Assembly: GCA_028717805.1 (NCBI GenBank)
Contig: JAQUNC010000007.1
Span: forward strand, 1 to 64,000
DNA from: Atribacterota bacterium
GTDB taxonomy: Bacteria; Atribacterota; Phoenicimicrobiia; Phoenicimicrobiales; Stramentimicrobiaceae
Direction of reading: 5' to 3'
Length of the DNA: 64,000 nucleotides
Shown here: piece after piece, positions 17,333 to 59,742 of the stretch
How positions within the stretch are numbered: the first letter of the stretch is position 1
Layout: each line of letters opens with the position of its first letter
Notes under the pieces: generated by a model
Seen by the model: the letters and a program-made list of their open reading frames with translations, nothing else
Database searches by the model: none
Told to the model about the DNA's origin: nothing
Made by a program: the position numbers and the translations under genes

Positions 17333-18505
17333 CTAACGAATTTTAATGGTCTTTAATCTACCTAATTCCCCTTGGGAAGGAAAAAATTCAATAGGCTCCT
17401 GTAAAAAAAATTGTCCTTTTCCAATCCATTCTTTCAAGGAATGAGCAATAATTCTCGCTCTGGCATAACTGGATAAGGAAGAGGTCGGAACTTTTTTGCC
17501 CTTAATGTCTATCTGACCAGATCTAAGTTGGGCGTAATTGACCCAGCCCAGGGATGGTTTATCAGGATGTGGATAACTATAATCTAAGATTTCAGTATAT
17601 ATCTCCTCATCTTTAATACTAACTACTCTCATCATATCTTCATCAAGAATGGGTATGGGTATGCCAATACCAACATATAAAGAAACACCATATCCTGCAA
17701 AATAGGCAGCTTGAATAAAATCGGGTTTCATTTTTTTCAGGTTTCCTATTAACGCTAAAGTTGCTCCCTGCCTTGTCACAATCTCCTTCTCTGGAATAGT
17801 AACAGTTCTGGGACTGAATTGGGTACCCTCCCAAATAACATAACCCTCTGTACCCCCAATAAAGATACGGCTTCCAATCCCAATACTCCTTAAGCTAGGA
17901 TCATTCAACAAGGGACTTAATTGTCCACTGGTGCTGTAGCTGGCATTGCCTAAATCAGGAAGAAGGATACCCATATAGGTATATATTTTTTTTGTTGATT
18001 GATTTACCGCTACATTATAATTCTGATAGGTATTTCTGGGATTGACCATAAAAGCCTGATTTACTGTTTCTTTGGAGATAGTTGCTTCAACTTCACGAGC
18101 AGGATAACAATCGGTTCCATTGGAAAGTGCTTTTAATCTAATATCCTTCCCTTTTACAAATTCTTCGATGACATGGGCTCCACCATAATCATTTCTTTCT
18201 GATTCTGATAATTGAGTAGCACCTAAATAAATATCAACAGCAGCCAGACCGGCATAAGCCATTACATCATTGAGCCACACCTTTTGCATTTTAATAGGTG
18301 GATCACTATGTCCTACATTAAAAAATGCTCCAGAGGAACACATGGGACCGAAGGTACCGGTAGTTACTACATCAACCAATTTGGTAGCTTCTTCTATTCC
18401 CTGTTCATCTTTTAAGGCAATTACTTCTTCTGCAGTCATTACAACTGCTTCTTTGCGAGCAATTTTTTCATTAATCTCCTGATATGTTCTTTTTAATTTA
18501 CCCAT
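17333..18505 (-). CDS. DUF39 homocysteine biosynthesis protein
   Basis: This 390-residue protein is of the COG1900/DUF39 family, which makes homocysteine from aspartate semialdehyde and a sulfur donor in anaerobes. The conserved cysteines are C56 in GPMCSSGAFFNVGHSDPP and C133 in TDCYPAREVEA, at the spacing expected for the family. It is the first gene of the operon and is followed by the NIL-ferredoxin and UPF0280 genes. No CBS domains are fused. Regulation probably acts through the structured leader just upstream. Confidence 0.92.
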   Translation of the reverse strand: MGKLKRTYQEINEKIARKEAVVMTAEEVIALKDEQGIEEATKLVDVVTTGTFGPMCSSGAFFNVGHSDPPIKMQKVWLNDVMAYAGLAAVDIYLGATQLSESERNDYGGAHVIEEFVKGKDIRLKALSNGTDCYPAREVEATISKETVNQAFMVNPRNTYQNYNVAVNQSTKKIYTYMGILLPDLGNASYSTSGQLSPLLNDPSLRSIGIGSRIFIGGTEGYVIWEGTQFSPRTVTIPEKEIVTRQGATLALIGNLKKMKPDFIQAAYFAGYGVSLYVGIGIPIPILDEDMMRVVSIKDEEIYTEILDYSYPHPDKPSLGWVNYAQLRSGQIDIKGKKVPTSSLSSYARARIIAHSLKEWIGKGQFFLQEPIEFFPSQGELGRLKTIKIR

Positions 18506-18955: not shown

Positions 18956-19777
18956 TTATACAGAATTATGGTCAGCTGTTAACCTTCCCTCTCGGTAAGC
19001 CTTGATATATTCGCAACAATAATTATCCTTCCCCAACAGGGTTAAAGAAGTCTTAATCATAGCTATCAATCTTTTATCAGTAGGATCAATTATGGCGGCA
19101 TTCATGCCACAAGACATAGTTAGAATCATGAAAACCTGGTTAATCAGCTTTCTTTCCGGAAGACCATAAGAAATGTTGCTTAAACCTATTACTGTTTTAA
19201 CTTCAGGATAAATTTCCTTTACACCACGTATGGTATCTAAAACTATTAAACCATTTTGATCATTAGTTCCAATTGGAACTGCCAGAGGATCAATATATAT
19301 ATCTGCCAAGGGTACGCCAGAATCTGTTAACACTTGTATTAATTTACGGGCAATTTCAATACGTGTTTGGGCATTATCAGGAATACCTCGTTCATCCATA
19401 ACCAGAGCTACTACAGCGCATTTATAATTTTTTATACTGGGTAGTAGTCTATCCATCTTTTCTTTTTCTCCAGTAACGGAATTAATGAATGCCTTTCCAT
19501 TAGCCCAATTATGTGCTGCCAGACCTTTTTCAATTTCTTCAGCATTGGGGCTATCAATACATAAAGGAACTGCTGCTACCTCCTGTACAGTTTTAACCAG
19601 CCATTTCATATTCTCTTTACTGTTACCACTGGCAGCGGAGGCATTCACATCCAGGATATTGGCTCCTCCCTCTACCTGTTTCCTGGCTAATTCCTGAATA
19701 GATTTTACATCTCTATTTTCAATCATCTTTCTGACTCTTTCTCTGGTAGAATTTAATTTTTCACCAATAATTAGCAT
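18956..19777 (-). CDS. Methyltetrahydrofolate:corrinoid methyltransferase (MeTr-like)
   Basis: This 273-residue TIM-barrel pterin-binding protein resembles AcsE/MtgA-type methyltransferases and the folate domain of MetH. Landmarks are IIGEKLNSTRE at the N-terminus, GGANILDVNASA, PLCIDSPN, INSVTGEKEK, VALVMDERGIPDNAQTR and YIDPLAVPIGT. It moves a methyl group between tetrahydrofolate and a corrinoid protein. It is the last gene of a cluster that also encodes EtfA, EtfB, a MetF-like protein and a corrinoid protein. It lacks a MetH-type homocysteine domain. The SD is AAGGAG, six bases from ATG. Confidence 0.9.
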   Translation of the reverse strand: MLIIGEKLNSTRERVRKMIENRDVKSIQELARKQVEGGANILDVNASAASGNSKENMKWLVKTVQEVAAVPLCIDSPNAEEIEKGLAAHNWANGKAFINSVTGEKEKMDRLLPSIKNYKCAVVALVMDERGIPDNAQTRIEIARKLIQVLTDSGVPLADIYIDPLAVPIGTNDQNGLIVLDTIRGVKEIYPEVKTVIGLSNISYGLPERKLINQVFMILTMSCGMNAAIIDPTDKRLIAMIKTSLTLLGKDNYCCEYIKAYREGRLTADHNSV

Positions 19778-19893
19778 AACTAAATCTCCTTTTCATATTT
19801 CATATAAGTAATTGAAATTTCATAAATTTTGAAGTGAGAAACCTTTTAATTATCATCTTTGTCTGAATGATGAGGCATATTCTTATTCTAATT

Positions 19894-20913
19894 TTATAGT
19901 TCAGTTATTTCGTAAATAATTTCCGGAATAATTTCAAATAAATCTCCTATTACCGCTATATCGGCTATTTGCATCATAGGTGTATGTGGATTTTGGTCAA
20001 TAGCTATTATTAAGTCACAGGACTGCATTCCTACCAGATGTTGTATCTGTCCCGAAATACCACAGGCTATATAAACCTTTGTTTGAACTGTTTGTCCTGT
20101 TTGTCCAACCTGATGGGCATAGGAAATCCAGCCTGCATCAACAGCTGCCCTGCTTGCTCCTAAGGCTGCACCTCCAACCTTTTCGGCAAATCTTTTTAAG
20201 AGATCAAAACCCTTCTTCCCCTGCATTCCTCTTCCCCCTGAAATTATTATCTGAGCATCAGCGAGATTAACAGCAGTTTTAGTATCATGGAAAACACTAA
20301 TTATCTTCTTAATATTTTTGATATCACCATTAAAAATCTTCTCTTTTATTATTCTACCGGTACAAGTATAATTGGGCTCTGGCATCTTCATAACCCTTGG
20401 TCGAACAGTTGCCATTTGAGGTCGATAATTTGAACTGCGTATAATAGCCATAATGTTACCACCAAAAGCTGGTCTGGTTTGAAGTAGATCCCCGCTCTCT
20501 GGGTCAATGGAAAGTCCTGTGCAATCAGCAGTAAGGCCAGAATGGGTCATGACAGCGACCCTAGGAATCAAAGCCCTTCCCCTTGAAGTAGCTCCACATA
20601 TAATTGTTTCAGGCTTATATTTAACAATAATTCTCTTTAATATTTTAGATTCCAGTTCATCAATAAATCCAGAAAATGCCTTATTATCTAATATTATTAC
20701 TACATCTGCACCATAGGCAAAAAGCAGTTCCAAATTATCCTCTAACTTAGAACTCAGAACAATAATCCAAACCTCACTATTCCTCAAATCAGCTAAATTC
20801 CTAGCTACTCCAATTAATTCATAAGTTACTGTTTGTATTTTCCCAAATAAGAGTTCTGCTATTACCCAAATATTACGATACTTTTTCCTATCAAATTCTG
20901 TAGTAACCTTCAT
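19894..20913 (-). CDS. etfA: Electron transfer flavoprotein alpha subunit
   Basis: This 339-residue EtfA has the C-terminal FAD-binding domain, including GASRAAVDAGW, GQTGQTV, YIACGISGQIQHL and AIDQNP. The N-terminal half carries the ETF fold. It pairs with EtfB, 15 bases upstream, to carry electrons from a flavin or pyridine dehydrogenase. No acyl-CoA dehydrogenase is nearby. The partner is instead the MetF-like/corrinoid system, which is unusual. Whether the pair is of the bifurcating type cannot be judged by eye. Confidence 0.92.
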   Translation of the reverse strand: MKVTTEFDRKKYRNIWVIAELLFGKIQTVTYELIGVARNLADLRNSEVWIIVLSSKLEDNLELLFAYGADVVIILDNKAFSGFIDELESKILKRIIVKYKPETIICGATSRGRALIPRVAVMTHSGLTADCTGLSIDPESGDLLQTRPAFGGNIMAIIRSSNYRPQMATVRPRVMKMPEPNYTCTGRIIKEKIFNGDIKNIKKIISVFHDTKTAVNLADAQIIISGGRGMQGKKGFDLLKRFAEKVGGAALGASRAAVDAGWISYAHQVGQTGQTVQTKVYIACGISGQIQHLVGMQSCDLIIAIDQNPHTPMMQIADIAVIGDLFEIIPEIIYEITEL

Positions 20914-20928
20914 ACTATCATCCTTATA

Positions 20929-21717
20929 TTAAATTATATTGCGCATTCTTAATTCTCGCAGCAAGCTTCTGGCACATTCTCTAGCCGATCCTTCAATCCT
21001 TTTAGTACTGGCATGCCTTGGAGCAGGCTGTTCTATTTTTACTACCCTGGTTGGTGAGCCATCAAGCCCAATCTTTGTTTTTTCAATTTTTATATCTTCT
21101 GGCTTCCAAACTGGAATTTCCCGCTTCAGAGAAGCTAATCTCCCTTTGAGGGTTGGTACCCTGGGAATATTAATATCTTTTACCACAGTCATCACTGCAG
21201 GCAGTGCTATTTCACAAATATCGTAACCATCTTCATGCATTCTTTTCACCCTGATAATAGAAGATGATAGCTCTTCTACTGCCATAACATAAGTGGCCTG
21301 TACCCAATTCAAATGAGCAGCGATACCAGGACCTACCTGGGCTGTATCTCCATCTATGGCCTGTTTACCACAAAGGACCAGGTCAACTTTACCTATTTTT
21401 TTTATTGCCCTGGCTAGAACATAACTCGTTGCCCAGGTATCTGAACCAGCAAAATCCCGGTCACTAAGTAAAATTGCTTTATCCACTCCCAGAGAAAGAA
21501 CTTCTCGTAGTGCTTGTTCAGCTTTAGGAGGACCCATAGTGAGGGCTAAGACTTCTCCACCAAATTTATCTCTTAACTGTATTCCTTCTTCTACTGCATA
21601 GGTATCAAAGGGATTAAGAATTGCTCTTACTCCTTCTCTAACTATTCTTTTTGTCTCCGGATCAATTTTGGTATCATTAGTTGCTGGTACCTGCTTGATG
21701 CAAACTACTATCTTCAT
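20929..21717 (-). CDS. etfB: Electron transfer flavoprotein beta subunit
   Basis: This 262-residue EtfB starts with the classic KIVVCIKQVP. It also shows NPFDTYAVEEGIQLRDK, LCGKQAIDGDTAQVGPG and the C-terminal recognition-loop region. It forms a heterodimer with EtfA downstream. It lies 24 bases after the MetF-like gene, supporting use of ETF as redox partner of that protein. The SD GGGAGGA is strong. Confidence 0.93.
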   Translation of the reverse strand: MKIVVCIKQVPATNDTKIDPETKRIVREGVRAILNPFDTYAVEEGIQLRDKFGGEVLALTMGPPKAEQALREVLSLGVDKAILLSDRDFAGSDTWATSYVLARAIKKIGKVDLVLCGKQAIDGDTAQVGPGIAAHLNWVQATYVMAVEELSSSIIRVKRMHEDGYDICEIALPAVMTVVKDINIPRVPTLKGRLASLKREIPVWKPEDIKIEKTKIGLDGSPTRVVKIEQPAPRHASTKRIEGSARECARSLLRELRMRNII

Positions 21718-21741
21718 AATTCCTCCCTGCCTTTATGCTGC

Positions 21742-22539
21742 TTAAACTAAGGTTTCTTTAATCAAATCAAACTGGTTTTTTATTCCTAATAGAGATAAAT
21801 AAACACCACACCCCGGATATAAATTATGAAGAACTTTTAAATTTGCTATAGGATCATATTCACCGTTCATGGTTATCTCATAACCTACTACTTCAGAAAG
21901 AAGATGTAGCTTTTTACTCATCCATGCTTCTACTATTACTGGTATTTGGGGATACTTTTTAAGAAGTTTATTTATTACCTTATTTCTTCCCAATAATGGT
22001 TGAGTAATGATAAATGTAGCGCCGGCTTTAATCTTTTTTTCCATCTTTTCAAATTCATGCTCCTCCGGTTCATAAGGATTAAAAGCAACCCCCAGAATAA
22101 AAGCCCCAGGATACTCTCGGCTTATATATTTCAGCAATTCGACAGAAGTAACAGAATCAATATTGGTTAAATTTACATCTACGGGTCGGAGCTTGGGAAG
22201 ACGAATAGATCCATCTCCAGTAATTACCAGAATATACTTAATGCCTTTTCGGAGGCAAGCATTAAGAATATTATCCAGGTCATCCTTTCTATGGAAAGTA
22301 TTAAGATGAATCATTACCTGTTTTAGCATTACCGGAAGCTTAAATTCTTCAATTATTTCAGTCCCCTGGAAAGATAAATTACCCATAGTATTATCAGTAA
22401 TACAAACACAATATCCACTGTTAATAACCTTCATATATCTAGTGTAAAATTTTTCAAGGTCTGACTCCAGGTTTTCTGAATCCTGTTTTGGTGGTAAAAC
22501 TTCCACCAAGTAATTCTTGTTACGAATGTGATGAATCAT
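21742..22539 (-). CDS. Short MetF-like (methylenetetrahydrofolate reductase fold) protein
   Basis: This protein has the MTHFR barrel: EVLPPK near the N-terminus aligns with the conserved E-x-x-PPK of MetF, LVITGDGS with the folate/FAD-site T-GD segment, and GATFIITQPLL with the late strand. I place the start at the ATG at 22539 (265 residues), because GGAG stands seven bases upstream. The frame is open to a GTG at 22569 with no ribosome site. It is shorter and more divergent than the canonical metF at 26269. Flanked by a corrinoid protein and ETF, it may oxidise methyl-folate to methylene-folate with ETF as acceptor. That role is inferred. Confidence 0.75.
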   Translation of the reverse strand: MIHHIRNKNYLVEVLPPKQDSENLESDLEKFYTRYMKVINSGYCVCITDNTMGNLSFQGTEIIEEFKLPVMLKQVMIHLNTFHRKDDLDNILNACLRKGIKYILVITGDGSIRLPKLRPVDVNLTNIDSVTSVELLKYISREYPGAFILGVAFNPYEPEEHEFEKMEKKIKAGATFIITQPLLGRNKVINKLLKKYPQIPVIVEAWMSKKLHLLSEVVGYEITMNGEYDPIANLKVLHNLYPGCGVYLSLLGIKNQFDLIKETLV

Positions 22540-22570
22540 AAAATTCTCCGATGAATTGAAATTTTTCACT

Positions 22571-23203
22571 CTAAGCTATAAATTTTTTAGCATCTTCGGC
22601 TGCAGAAGCAGCATCAGGAGAGTAGCCATCAGCACCAATTTGTTCTGCATAATTTTGGGTTATGGGAGCTCCTCCAATCATTACTTTTACCTTCTCACGC
22701 AAATCTGACAATTGAAGGGATTTGATTACATCCACCATGTTAACCATAGTAGTAGTTAAGAGTGCTGACATTCCTAATATATTGGGTTTGTATTCTTTAA
22801 CCGCAGATACAAACTTATCTGCTGAGACGTCTACTCCTAGATCTATAACTTCAAAACCTGCTCCTTCTAACATCATTTTTACTAAATTCTTTCCTATATC
22901 ATGTAGATCTCCTTTTACGGTTCCTATTACTACTTTGCCTATATTTTTTACTCCTGTTTCAACTAATTTAGGCTTTAATACATCCATTCCGGCATGCATA
23001 GCTCGGGCAGCAATTAATACTTCTGGCACATATACTTCATTATTCTTAAATTTTACCCCGATAATATTCATTCCTTTGATTAAGCCATTTTCAAGTATCT
23101 CTTTTGGAGACAATTTTTCTGCTAAAGCCAGTCGAACCAATTCTTCTACTTTACCTGCATCACCTCTTTGAAGTGCTTCAGATATTTCATTCAAATCTAA
23201 CAT
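22571..23203 (-). CDS. Corrinoid (B12-binding) methyl-carrier protein
   Basis: This 210-residue protein is of the MtbC/MttC/MtgC type, a cap helix domain followed by a cobalamin-binding Rossmann domain. The cobalt-ligating motif D99-x-H101-x-x-G104 is intact (GDLHDIGKN), as are MSALLTTTM and VMIGGAPITQNYA. It carries a methyl group on cobalt between a donor methyltransferase and MeTr. No donor enzyme of the MttB, MtaB or MtgB type is in the window. It is the first gene of the cluster, with SD GGGGGGA. Confidence 0.92.
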   Translation of the reverse strand: MLDLNEISEALQRGDAGKVEELVRLALAEKLSPKEILENGLIKGMNIIGVKFKNNEVYVPEVLIAARAMHAGMDVLKPKLVETGVKNIGKVVIGTVKGDLHDIGKNLVKMMLEGAGFEVIDLGVDVSADKFVSAVKEYKPNILGMSALLTTTMVNMVDVIKSLQLSDLREKVKVMIGGAPITQNYAEQIGADGYSPDAASAAEDAKKFIA

Positions 23204-23465
23204 CTTATATCCCCCCTATTATTTATAGTTTCTCTTAATTTTAAAGAATAAAAAAATCTAATACTATATCAGGATTGTCCTGTTAGGTAATTTCTTGCTT
23301 TTTTTAAGAATATTATTGTATATTTAGACTTTTGGAAACTTAACCTAATGGGAAATGCCCTAAAGAAACAATTACTATTATAATGAGTTAACAGAAAATT
23401 AGGAGCTTAAATATATCAGAGGAAAGATAGAGGAATTATAATAAAAGTAAAATGGATTAGAAACA

Positions 23466-24779
23466 CTATCTCTTCATTTTTTCCTTATAATCAGAAGTAG
23501 ATATTCCTTCTATCTTTTTAAAAACTTTACAAAAATAGCTTTGATCGGGGTAACCTACCTCAAAAGCAATTTGAGTAGAGCTCCATGAAGTATTCTCTAA
23601 TAATTTCTTTGCTTCCTCGATTCGTACCTTGGTAAGATATTCCAATATGGTAGAGCCAGTTTCTTTTTTAAAAATATGGCTTAAATAATAAGAACTCAGA
23701 TATACTGCTTTACTGATATCCTGTAATGTTATCTTCTTCTTATAGTTTGACCGAATAAACTCCCTTACCTTTCTAATAATATCAACGTTTTTAATATTCC
23801 TATTTTCATATACTGATTCAGTAAATCTATCCAGAACCTTTACAATCCAGATACACAATTCTTCAATAGATTTTAGTTTACCGATTTCCTGGATATATTC
23901 AAAATTTAATCCCAGAACCATTTCTAATTCAGCCTTGGCTTCCACAGCAGCTCGAGAAAGGATAACTGCCAGCTCTAGGATACGAGCCCTAACCAACTCA
24001 ATCTGACCGGCATTCTTAAATAATATCTGACCTAAAATTTCATTTAATACTTCTTTAGCGCCCTCTTTATCACCTAATTTCACTCTACGCAGCAATTCTC
24101 TCTCTGTTTTTAAAGGATAAAGCGAAGAGATGGGAAGGGGAGAATTTTCATCTTCTACGTTCTGCTCTAGTAACTCTATTTCTGTCCTTTTTATACGCTG
24201 AATCTCTTCAGAAATTTTTGCTTGTTGCAAATACTTTTCCTGACGCAATTTAATATCAATTAATTCCATCTTTACCAGGTAGTTTGCCATGATATAAAGA
24301 ATATCAGCAGCAGCTCTTACCCTTTCTTCTGATACTATCTTTATCTTGCTAAGAGCTTTTTGTAGGAGTAATTCTTCTACCCCTAAAGATTTGCTTATTT
24401 TCCTCATCTCTTTCCATAAAGAAGTGTCTGGCTCTCTCATTAACACTCCGCCGGAAACAAAATTACCTAATAATTCACCAGCACACCAAAAAGGAGCTGA
24501 CCATTCGATTAGTCCAGCATGACATTGATATATATAAGGAAAACCAAATTCGCTACTCTTTTCGGCACTATTATAAAAGGCATTGAGACAGTTCTTTTCT
24601 CCTATAGAATTCTTCTGAATTAACTTACAAAATTCACAAAAATATCTACCACTATGAGTAGGAAAAATAAATTTACCATTTCCTGGCACAAAAATCACGC
24701 TTATTCCTACTGCCCGATAATAGGAATCTATTAGCCATCTTACGGTATCAATAATTTTAAAATTTTCTTTCTGACTCAT
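23466..24779 (-). CDS. PocR-domain AraC family transcriptional regulator
   Basis: This regulator of about 437 residues has an N-terminal PocR ligand-binding domain (to about residue 180; CEFCKLIQ, CHAGLIEWSAP and the glycine-rich GNFVSGGVL). A central helical linker follows, then a C-terminal AraC double helix-turn-helix (residues 335-437; ISKAVYLSSYYLSHIFKKE and STQIAFEVGYPDQSYFCKVFK). PocR domains sense small metabolites and often stand next to corrinoid methyltransferase genes, as here. ATG at 24779 is preferred over the GTG at 24791. It lies upstream of the corrinoid operon in the same orientation and probably activates it. Confidence 0.88.
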   Translation of the reverse strand: MSQKENFKIIDTVRWLIDSYYRAVGISVIFVPGNGKFIFPTHSGRYFCEFCKLIQKNSIGEKNCLNAFYNSAEKSSEFGFPYIYQCHAGLIEWSAPFWCAGELLGNFVSGGVLMREPDTSLWKEMRKISKSLGVEELLLQKALSKIKIVSEERVRAAADILYIMANYLVKMELIDIKLRQEKYLQQAKISEEIQRIKRTEIELLEQNVEDENSPLPISSLYPLKTERELLRRVKLGDKEGAKEVLNEILGQILFKNAGQIELVRARILELAVILSRAAVEAKAELEMVLGLNFEYIQEIGKLKSIEELCIWIVKVLDRFTESVYENRNIKNVDIIRKVREFIRSNYKKKITLQDISKAVYLSSYYLSHIFKKETGSTILEYLTKVRIEEAKKLLENTSWSSTQIAFEVGYPDQSYFCKVFKKIEGISTSDYKEKMKR

Positions 24780-24950
24780 TTTTTGCACCACTTCATATAT
24801 AGGAGAGGTAATTTCACGACTTTACCAGAGAATGCCCTAATAATAGTGTCAATAGGATAACATTATATTATGTGCATAGTAAATCAATGATTATCCCTTT
24901 CTTTAATAAGATAATTTGTATGATTTCCAAGATGTCTTTACATATCTATT

Positions 24951-26053
24951 TCTTTCCTATAACAATAGAATACTATTTATCTGGGTTCCGGTAAAGTGAA
25001 TTTACGTTTACCATTGATAAATTTCTGGTAAGGAATCTTTCCCTTTAGACGATTACCCTGATTCGTTCTTTTAAAATTATAATAGTAGATGAACTTTTCC
25101 AAATAATCCTGTAACTGGTCCAAAGAGGTATAGATATTCTTAATCATTATTAGTTGGTAAAACTCTTCTAACAGTGTTCTGTTAAATCTTTCTACGATAA
25201 CGTTACTCCTGGGACATCTGGGCTTAATCTTAGTGTGAGCGATACCATGCTTGGCCAGAAATGTTTCATAATCATGCTTGCCATTTTCCCAGTAGGTGGT
25301 ATACTCTTTGCCATTATTGGTTAAGATGTGATCTAAGGGAATATGAAACACCTCATAGACTGGTATCACTTTGGTCTTGACAAGGTCAATAGCACTGTCA
25401 GTTCTCTTATTGGTATAGACATTGGCAAAGCTGAAGTGGACATAGGCATCAATACCGACCTGCTGGTAGATCCTACCCAAGCCCTTGATGGTGCCCACAT
25501 AGAAGGTATCCTGGCAGAAGAGAGCACCGGGATAGAAAGCCTGGATATGGATTTCTTCTCTCTTTTCTACCTCTCTGAGATACCTTTTTCGGTAATGACT
25601 GGATTATCCGAGTATTCCTGGGCACAAAAGAGTCTATCTAGACGTTTGTTTAACCCTCTTCGTCTTGGGACATGATAGATGCCGGTTTCACTGATGGTAA
25701 TACCCTGTGCTTTCAGCTCATTGGATATTCTTCTGAGTCCATGGGTCGGGTAATCTGTTGTGTAATTGTAAATGATTGTCTCAGATTTCAGTTTGATCTG
25801 ATTGGGCATGTCGGACCTAGACTTTTGTCTATTGAACAAACCTTGATAATCGAATTTGTTGAATCTTTTTTAGCCACTAGTAATAGACCGTTCTGGATAC
25901 GTTAAACAATCTACAGGTATCAGTAATGTTCTTGTTTTTATATGCATGTTAGGATACACTATGCTTTTAATGAGCAATGAAATCATCTATGATCATGTAT
26001 GCTCTCTCCTTCCTATTTAAAATTTGTTTTTCAACTATATTCTATAGGAAAGA
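24951..26053 (-). mobile_element. Decayed IS481-like insertion sequence
   Basis: An inverted repeat TCTTTCCTATA (24951-24961) and its complement (26043-26053) bracket a transposase remnant, giving an element of about 1.1 kb, a usual size for IS481. The ends are only 11 perfect bases, and no target duplication was identified. The transposase inside is broken, so the copy is dead. Confidence 0.6.
24977..25933 (-). pseudogene. Broken IS481-like transposase
   Basis: Three frames must be joined to rebuild the protein. The N-terminal helix-turn-helix (NITDTCRLFNVSRTVYY) is cut by TAG at 25877-25879 and then shifted in an A run. The middle part (YPTHGLRRISNELKAQGI) ends after a shift in an A5 run near 25587. 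The catalytic core then continues (CQDTFYVGTIKG, with the first catalytic D). The second catalytic aspartate is replaced: the motif reads LTNNGKEY where LTDNG is expected. The glutamate in VERFNRTLLEEF remains. Several independent lesions show this is not an active transposase. Confidence 0.85.
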
Positions 26054-26268: not shown

Positions 26269-27192
26269 ATGAGACTAAAAGAAAAATTAGAAAAGAAAAA
26301 ATTTGTTTTTACTGTAGAATTGGATCCGCCCCTTAATGTGAATATTGACTATCTACTAGAAAGTATTAAAAAATATTTAAATCTAACTGATGCTATTAAT
26401 ATCACCGATTGTCCCTTAGCCTGCTTAAGAATGGGACCTATTGCTCTCTCTCATATTATTCAGGAAAGTGTGCATTTAGAAACTATCTTTCATATTACTT
26501 GTAGAGACAGAAACTTGTTAGCTTTAAAGGCGGAATTGCTGGGAGCTTATGCTTTGGGTGTGAAAAATATTCTTGCTCTGTCCGGAGATCATCCCAAAAT
26601 GGGAGATCATGCCCAAGCTACTGCCGTTTTTGATGTAGATTCCATAGGCTTAATTAAAATTATTCAGGAATTAAATCAAGGATATTTTTCTAGCAATAAA
26701 ACTTCTAATTATAAAACTGACTTTTTTACAGGTGTAGCAGTAAATCCAGGATCTAAAGAATTTGATAGAGAATTATCAAGATTGGAAAAAAAAGTATCTG
26801 CTGGAGCAAATTTTATCCAGACCCAACCTATTTTTAGTATAAAAATACTGGAAAATTTTCTGAATATTACCAGTCACATAATCATTCCTAAAATTATCGG
26901 TATAATGCCATTAAGAGGTAAAAAGATGGTTGATTATATTGAAAAAAATCTTTCCCATATTTTTATTCCTGACAGTATAAGATCTAGGATGATTAATTCG
27001 GGCTTAGAAGAAGGTATAACTATTGCGCAGGAGCTAGTTAAAGAACTTCTGACTATAAAAGAGATAGCGGGCATCCATATCTTTCCTATGAATAAATTGT
27101 CGGTTATTCCTCGACTAATCGTTAAAAATCCAGATGAACATTTAGATTATTATTCCCCTGAAGTTTTTTCGAAGATGGATACTATCTTATGA
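26269..27192 (+). CDS. metF: Methylenetetrahydrofolate reductase
   Basis: This 307-residue MTHFR reduces 5,10-methylenetetrahydrofolate to 5-methyltetrahydrofolate with FAD. Landmarks are VFTVELDPP (catalytic Glu region), HITCRDRN, LLALKAELLGAYALGVKNILALSGDHP and GANFIQTQPIF, followed by IPKIIGIMPLRG. It is full length and much closer to canonical MetF than the short protein at 21742. It is a single-gene unit on the opposite strand from the methyl cluster, with its own promoter. The ribosome site is weak. Confidence 0.9.
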   Translation: MRLKEKLEKKKFVFTVELDPPLNVNIDYLLESIKKYLNLTDAINITDCPLACLRMGPIALSHIIQESVHLETIFHITCRDRNLLALKAELLGAYALGVKNILALSGDHPKMGDHAQATAVFDVDSIGLIKIIQELNQGYFSSNKTSNYKTDFFTGVAVNPGSKEFDRELSRLEKKVSAGANFIQTQPIFSIKILENFLNITSHIIIPKIIGIMPLRGKKMVDYIEKNLSHIFIPDSIRSRMINSGLEEGITIAQELVKELLTIKEIAGIHIFPMNKLSVIPRLIVKNPDEHLDYYSPEVFSKMDTIL

Positions 27193-36466: not shown

Positions 36467-36505
36467 CTTACTAACCTTCCTTTAATTTATAATCAAATAT
36501 AAAAA

Positions 36506-36533
36506 AATCTTCCCCAATGAAATGGGGAAGATT
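36506..36533 (-). terminator. Strong intrinsic terminator of the fab operon
   Basis: A perfect 11-bp stem (36506-36516 with 36523-36533, GGGGAAGATT arms) with a six-base loop is followed on the minus strand by a run of seven T residues. It lies about 200 bases past the last gene of the fab operon and just before pyrF. Confidence 0.85.
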
Positions 36534-36728
36534 CTCATTAACTTCCTTTTTTATTCTTATTAGGTATAAAAATGCTCTGGTTAAAGTGCTCACAGTTGCT
36601 TATTACCTTTCTAGTCTCTCAGGACTAAATTAAAGATACTTTATCAACTGGATATTACCATTTACTATCTTTCATGTCAAATAAAATTATTCAAGCAATT
36701 TTCCTCCGATTGTTATTTATTCTCCAAT

Positions 36729-59451: not shown

Positions 59452-59488
59452 AAAAAATCCTGTATGGAATTACCGTACAGGATTTTTT
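59452..59488 (-). terminator. Bidirectional intrinsic terminator
   Basis: A perfect 13-bp stem (59452-59464 with 59476-59488, AAAAAATCCTGTA) extends by two or three more pairs into the loop and has A/T runs on both sides. It separates the decayed acyl-CoA region upstream from the molybdopterin operon. Confidence 0.8.
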
Positions 59489-59742
59489 TCTTCTTTCCAA
59501 TACGGGAGGCTCAAAAATTTATTAATGAACCTAGCGGTTAACTACCATAGAACAGGTCTTTAGGATAGTTAACTCGAAGAAATTTGTTCATTTTACCAAA
59601 TAACTTACTAATTATACCTAAATTAGTCTATTTTTTCAAAGAATAATGCCAATTATATGAAGTGAGCATATCTTTTGTTAGCTACTCGGTAGGTTGTTTC
59701 CAAAAAACAAATAAAATCTTACACTACCTTTATTTATTATGC
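59489..59742. other. Gap with nothing recognised
   Basis: AT-rich sequence between the terminator and the hbd remnant. No frame of note and no repeat seen. It may be further decayed coding sequence. Confidence 0.3.

Follow-up and report, generated by a model that had tools for sequence, protein, structure and literature searches.

Which electron carrier serves the methylene-tetrahydrofolate (methylene-THF)/methyl-THF step, and whether a bifurcating methylene-THF reductase (MTHFR) exists, are long-standing questions in anaerobic energy metabolism (PMC8515935, PMC8760232, PMC13391211). Published schemes recognize MTHFR types I to IV, none with an electron transfer flavoprotein (ETF) (PMC8760232), or a single MetF alongside MetFV 2S, 3S, 6S and X (PMC8515935). 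In the MetVF-type enzymes of anaerobes (types II to IV and X), a MetF-fold subunit is combined with a dedicated electron-transfer module (PMC8760232, PMC8515935). Coupling of EtfAB to an MTHFR was once proposed for acetogens and was judged unlikely in Clostridium ljungdahlii, in which every etfAB adjoins another dehydrogenase (PMC8515935). Here, we describe a minus-strand gene cluster in a 64,000-nucleotide stretch of DNA (the window; contig JAQUNC010000007.1) from an uncultured, deep-branching Atribacterota bacterium, in which a short MTHFR homologue, termed MetFs, is encoded directly before the two subunits of an ETF, EtfB and EtfA. The best explanation of the whole, with a probability of about 0.7, is that MetFs-EtfAB is an ETF-linked MTHFR, probably of bifurcating type, that in Atribacterota would oxidize corrinoid-borne methyl groups.

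The window is part of contig 7 of a genome (G000) that measures 2.27 Mb, is 97% complete and whose nearest named relatives in a genome scan were Atribacterota metagenome-assembled genomes (MAGs). In order of transcription, the cluster encodes a PocR-domain AraC-type regulator (23466-24791, with an alternative ATG start at 24779; PF10114 and HTH_18), a corrinoid carrier protein resembling MtgC and MtbC (22571-23203; B12-binding and B12-binding_2 domains), MetFs (21742-22539; 265 amino acids (aa); PF02219), which is proposed to be a methyl-THF/methylene-THF oxidoreductase subunit, EtfB (20929-21717), EtfA (19894-20913; 339 aa) and a methyl-THF:corrinoid protein methyltransferase, MeTr (18956-19777; NF005719, 343 bits; PF00809, Pterin_bind). 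All six genes had been described in an earlier sequence-only reading and were recovered by profile matches. The conserved start of MetFs was taken to be the ATG at 22539, replacing the GTG at 22569, because the five relatives compared have stop codons just upstream in frame. Recoding of codons in the relatives' MetFs frames was rejected, as these stops precede the true start and none lies inside the gene.

Conservation of MetFs, EtfB and EtfA

When 85,462 genomes of prokaryote species were scanned, 36 related loci were found. All were in MAGs, whose labels were Atribacterota, Spirochaetota, Bacillota (among them rumen Clostridia and Erysipelotrichaceae) and, in a few cases, other groups. In 34 of the 35 loci whose contigs permitted the test, and in 5 further genomes, the gene after MetFs, in the same orientation, was EtfB; the intergenic gaps were mostly between -4 and +33 bp. 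As this adjacency repeats across three phyla, the association is far above chance expectation. In one locus (L037:10001-11605), MetFs and EtfB form a natural fusion, a single open reading frame (ORF) of 535 aa with a short linker. The conserved core is the trio MetFs-EtfB-EtfA and not the wider set of five genes from the corrinoid protein to MeTr, for which the sequence-only reading had advised a search.

A MeTr homologue was present in 25 of the 36 related loci. The corrinoid protein and PocR accompanied MetFs chiefly in Atribacterota-type loci; in relatives within Atribacterota, the regulator gene keeps its place upstream of that for the corrinoid protein. The Spirochaetota order was MeTr-FolD-Fhs-MetFs-EtfB-EtfA (L029 and, by homology, L050), and the Clostridia loci L024, L025 and L035 carry an Fhs-like gene beside MetFs, along with genes for a CobW-type GTPase and a URO-D protein. 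MeTr was followed by FolD and then RACo in L019 and by RACo in L013 and L022, while two or three URO-D genes were located directly upstream of PocR in L015 and L017. L016 is labelled Deltaproteobacteria and L017 Actinomycetota, labels that fit poorly with 75 to 83% identity to an Atribacterota protein; we attribute these Atribacterota-like clusters to transfer or to a binning or labelling error.

ETFs commonly serve acyl-CoA or lactate dehydrogenases, and one MetFs (L046) lacks an adjacent ETF, observations that would suit an incidental linkage in which the ETF serves a different dehydrogenase and not MetFs. The adjacency over three phyla and the fusion argue against this, as does the distribution of other partners. 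The cluster EtfA was the only ETF in 15 genomes, and 11 of these contained neither a PF00441 (acyl-CoA dehydrogenase) nor a PF02913 protein. No PF00441 protein was found in the entire window genome, and service to an acyl-CoA dehydrogenase was therefore rejected there; the sole other ETF of this genome adjoins its own FAD-linked oxidase (PF02913-type). An incidental linkage is, on this evidence, highly improbable. The functional link between MetFs and the ETF that had been suggested from the window alone was thus strengthened by the wider comparison.

MetFs as a member of the MTHFR superfamily

MetFs matched PF02219 with 52 bits against a cut-off of 24. An AlphaFold2 model computed with 36 orthologues formed a barrel (pLDDT 88, pTM 0.89) whose top 20 PDB matches were all MTHFRs, with E values down to 8e-12, and unrelated barrels ranked after these. 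Residues E13, T48, D109, K169 and Q180 of MetFs correspond to E28, T59, D120, K172 and Q183 of Escherichia coli MetF, and the equivalents of E. coli Glu28, Thr59, Asp120, Lys172, Ala177 and Gln183 were invariant in an alignment of 17 MetFs rows. By profile, predicted fold and catalytic residues, MetFs belongs to the MTHFR superfamily. It shares the TIM barrel and these catalytic residues with type I MTHFRs (MetF of E. coli and Thermus) but differs in its short, divergent C-terminal third, in the accompanying EtfAB and in its phylogenetic placement; positions Q219 and F223 were also unconserved in the MetFs alignment, in a region where the alignment is uncertain.

In the tree, MetFs formed its own clade (support, 100/100) on a stem of 2.55 changes per site, apart from type I MetF, MetVF-type MetF and the homocysteine methyltransferase-MetF fusions, with an exact position that is unsure owing to long branches. 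MetFs resembles the MetVF-type MTHFRs in joining a MetF-fold subunit to an electron-transfer module in anaerobes, but has EtfAB in place of MetV, RnfC2, HdrABC-MvhD or NuoEFG. MetV (PF12225) was detected in 3 of the 37 genomes, leaving 34 without it. As no PF12225 protein was found in the window genome and MetFs branches apart with full support, a MetVF-type enzyme was rejected.

The length of the branch to other MTHFRs and the divergence of the C-terminal third could indicate that MetFs is a TIM barrel that has no catalytic function or acts in a different way. The retained catalytic residues, the match of the fold to MTHFR and the neighbouring MeTr, FolD and Fhs genes all oppose this, and MetFs is the sole MTHFR homologue in 20 of the 37 genomes. 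We regard this explanation as very improbable, about as much so as an incidental linkage.

Several observations weigh against an ETF-linked MTHFR. The MetFs-EtfB fusion was found in one locus only, and a model of it gave a pTM of 0.51, with no interface predicted. The L046 MetFs adjoins an Fhs-like ORF, and the sole ETF of that genome is unlinked. In the C-terminal third, where the alignment is unsure, the folate/NADH pocket could be only partly checked, and gene absences are provisional, all the related genomes being MAGs. Set against these are the adjacency, the fusion, the fold, the catalytic residues, the sole-MTHFR and sole-ETF genomes and the folate-gene neighbours, because of which it is very likely that MetFs-EtfB-EtfA is an ETF-linked methylene-THF reductase/methyl-THF dehydrogenase. 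Gene linkage and fusion, the fold and the catalytic residues, the signatures of the ETF and the lack of other recognizable partners are all read from sequence. Loss of the gene set, loss of the flavin and folate sites (the pocket being judged from residues and fold only) and consistent pairing of the ETF with a distant dehydrogenase, each named in the sequence-only reading as telling against its idea, were not observed.

An ETF of the bifurcating type by sequence

The five best PDB matches of each ETF subunit were CarDE, Bcd-EtfAB, EtfABCX, Ldh-EtfAB (LctB/LctC) and the A. fermentans Etf, all of which are bifurcating. EtfB scored 191 to 232 bits against these five and at most 106 bits against others, and human and bacterial plain ETFs ranked far behind the bifurcating ETFs in the matches of both subunits. 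The window EtfB carries the b-FAD segment DGDTAQVGP (position 122), the NAD segment RXFXG (as RDFAG, position 87) and the SPT anchor (position 221). The b-FAD segment was present in every EtfB of sufficient length, and the RXFXG segment was altered in 3 loci. R147 of EtfA aligns with R205 of LctC, and the motif QTRPAFGG was found in all EtfA proteins of sufficient length. LctC R205 contacts N5 of the b-FAD, and Ldh-EtfAB mutated at the b-FAD, NAD or SPT motifs or at R205 was impaired in b-FAD function, in the reduction of NAD+ or in coupling (PMC9232219). The cluster ETF is, by sequence, of the bifurcating type. It shares its b-FAD and NAD motifs and a co-encoded partner oxidoreductase with the Bcd-EtfAB, CarCDE, Ldh-EtfAB and EtfABCX complexes and differs from them in that the partner is an MTHFR-type barrel and not an acyl-CoA dehydrogenase, a lactate dehydrogenase or FixCX.

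Such signatures are no proof of bifurcation, and EtfA lacks an N-terminal ferredoxin domain, as might be expected if this MetFs-linked ETF were a plain, non-bifurcating carrier with one partner, passing electrons to the membrane or to another dehydrogenase. However, Bcd-EtfAB bifurcates without that domain (PMC9232219), and the presence of the three EtfB motifs and of EtfA R147, together with solved nearest relatives that all bifurcate, makes a plain ETF unlikely. Given an ETF-linked MTHFR, we therefore consider it fairly probable that the enzyme is bifurcating or confurcating. The sequence-only reading had assigned the ETF the role of electron acceptor; the link to MetFs stands, but because of the bifurcating signatures the ETF is probably not a simple acceptor and instead couples NAD and ferredoxin.

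That the proteins form a complex, which cofactors and electron carriers it uses, in which direction flux runs, which methyl donor feeds it and that Fhs is encoded in the window genome are, by contrast with the sequence features, inferred. MetFs would bind flavin and folate in its MetF-type TIM barrel. Electrons taken from methyl-THF, or given to methylene-THF, would pass between MetFs and the alpha-FAD of the EtfAB dedicated to it. The beta-FAD of EtfAB would link these electrons to NAD(H) and to ferredoxin. Oxidation by confurcation would convert methyl-THF, reduced ferredoxin and 2 NAD+ to methylene-THF and 2 NADH; bifurcation would be the same reaction run reductively, yielding methyl-THF. 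MeTr would connect MetFs-EtfAB to the corrinoid protein. The potential of reduced ferredoxin is -450 to -500 mV. E0' is -200 mV for the methylene-THF/methyl-THF couple and -320 mV for that of NAD (PMC8515935, PMC13391211). Direct transfer from methyl-THF to NAD+ was calculated to cost approximately +23 kJ/mol, and confurcation with ferredoxin to yield -2 to -12 kJ/mol.

A MetFs-EtfAB type is absent from the published MTHFR schemes, and no MetF encoded with EtfAB was found described in the open-access literature, a search that left most subscription journals and preprints uncovered. What is new is the MTHFR variant; the ETF to which it is joined is of a known kind. The chances are even that MetFs-EtfAB should count as a fifth methylene-THF reductase type and as the first one to be ETF based and truly bifurcating or confurcating, known to date only from MAGs that belong to three or more phyla. 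If so, anaerobes could obtain NADH by oxidizing methyl groups, or reduced ferredoxin while making methyl-THF, and uncultured Atribacterota, Spirochaetota and Bacillota would have a route for methyl use or synthesis without acetyl-CoA synthase. This points to an unrecognized electron route at a key anaerobic one-carbon step. Three genes and a natural fusion make a small set for direct expression, with the L037 fusion as a useful single-chain construct.

Direction of flux and methyl donors

In Atribacterota, the cluster would serve the uptake of corrinoid-borne methyl groups under PocR control, followed by oxidation via FolD and Fhs, with URO-D-type methyltransferases as donors and MtgB-type enzymes in other JS1 genomes. 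Methyl oxidation is favoured in this group because of the PocR control, the MtgC/MtbC-like corrinoid carrier, the URO-D genes and MtgB among the neighbours, and RACo. Chloromethane cmu genes are a further corrinoid methyltransferase cassette of the URO-D kind to which the cluster can be likened. The dichloromethane mec cassette, in which PocR, URO-D and a corrinoid protein are combined (PMC9768040), shares with the window cluster a PocR sensor domain, a corrinoid protein and a MeTr-type methyltransferase, and with the clusters of relatives the URO-D genes; the window cluster differs in having its own MetFs-EtfAB and no adjacent URO-D genes. The order in L013 and L022 (PolX-like, PocR, corrinoid protein, EtfBA) resembles the JS1 mtgB locus, for which the legend of a published figure gives rhaR, mtgB, metH, polX, carD and carE and where the ETF is called caffeyl-CoA reductase subunits (PMC10826368, Fig. 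6). The two are probably the same locus, with betaine as donor. The published locus differs from the present case in that no MetF is named there, and the window genome has no MttB-family protein.

The absence of a donor methyltransferase and of an acyl-CoA dehydrogenase, claimed in the sequence-only reading, extends genome-wide for MttB/MtgB and PF00441, but that reading had overlooked URO-D donors, which occur beside the cluster in relatives and give 5 matches in the window genome, none adjoining the cluster. No PF06253 protein was found in the window genome (3 of 22 genomes had one), and an MttB-family donor was rejected there; MtaB lay outside that search. An MtmB homologue (PF05369; 462 aa, no internal stop) is encoded on contig C55 of the window genome (L067:8954-10342, minus strand), the contig that also carries the ETF-FAD-oxidase gene set, and is a possible methyl donor enzyme. 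On contig C12, a URO-D protein (L065:7481-8740, minus strand) is encoded among sugar-type ABC transporter and dehydrogenase genes, next to which stands a LacI-type regulator in the same cluster, and could act on methylated sugars. Five genomes of other lineages contain 33 to 54 URO-D matches each (G058, G059, G060 and G062, with loci L023, L024, L025 and L027, and G064, with L029) and are almost without MttB; these large expansions, which also speak for methyl oxidation, possibly reflect broad O- or S-demethylation.

A point against oxidation concerns genomes in which MetFs is the sole MTHFR: most contain a stand-alone homocysteine methyltransferase (PF02574), which favours methionine synthesis. 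A biosynthetic use would share the ETF-linked MTHFR core and differ in direction, MetFs-EtfAB reducing methylene-THF with NADH electrons brought by the ETF, perhaps with bifurcation, while a split methionine synthase is made up of MeTr, the corrinoid protein and a stand-alone homocysteine methyltransferase. On contig C24 of the window genome (L091:257-4516), a PF02574 protein, RACo and a 234-aa protein without a Pfam match stand in a row, unlinked to the MetFs cluster, and are candidate parts of such a synthase. The PF02574 protein of G066 adjoins an ORF that reads, by eye, as LuxS, and that of G074 lies in a cluster with a corrinoid protein and RACo, although this cluster also holds two URO-D genes. 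The sequence-only reading, which raised this alternative, had pointed to homocysteine genes next to the module; in relatives, none were seen there. The window genome moreover has a second, ordinary MetF, which could supply methionine synthesis, and PocR control and URO-D neighbours suit inducible methyl uptake. The biosynthetic explanation, though the strongest of the alternatives, is the less likely one. Mainly oxidative flux is slightly favoured for the window organism, and the opposite use elsewhere is allowed.

Acetyl-CoA synthase (PF03598) was found in 3 of the 37 genomes and not in the window genome, because of which Wood-Ljungdahl acetogenesis was rejected as the purpose of the cluster.

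Neighbouring genes and other features

The second MetF (MetF2; 26269-27192, plus strand; 307 aa; PF02219, 135 bits) lies near the module but outside it, has no ETF link and falls in a separate clade. Beyond MeTr, a homocysteine biosynthesis protein, HcyBio (17333-18505, minus strand; PF01837), follows after a gap of 450 bp. Because of this gap, and because HcyBio was absent after MeTr in relatives whose contigs reach past MeTr, it is probably a separate unit; homocysteine genes were rejected as part of the module.

No cobalamin or folate riboswitch was detected at the operon at the gathering threshold, and promoter and terminator signals in the operon were no commoner than in shuffled sequences. 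Directly upstream of the PocR gene (24977-25839) are fragments that, by appearance, resemble an IS3-type transposase; these putative fragments occupy the place of the relatives' URO-D genes and may have displaced donor genes. Elsewhere in the window, both on the minus strand, are a PyrR binding site (36499-36640) and a molybdenum/tungsten cofactor riboswitch (59474-59591; RF01055, 57.6 bits).

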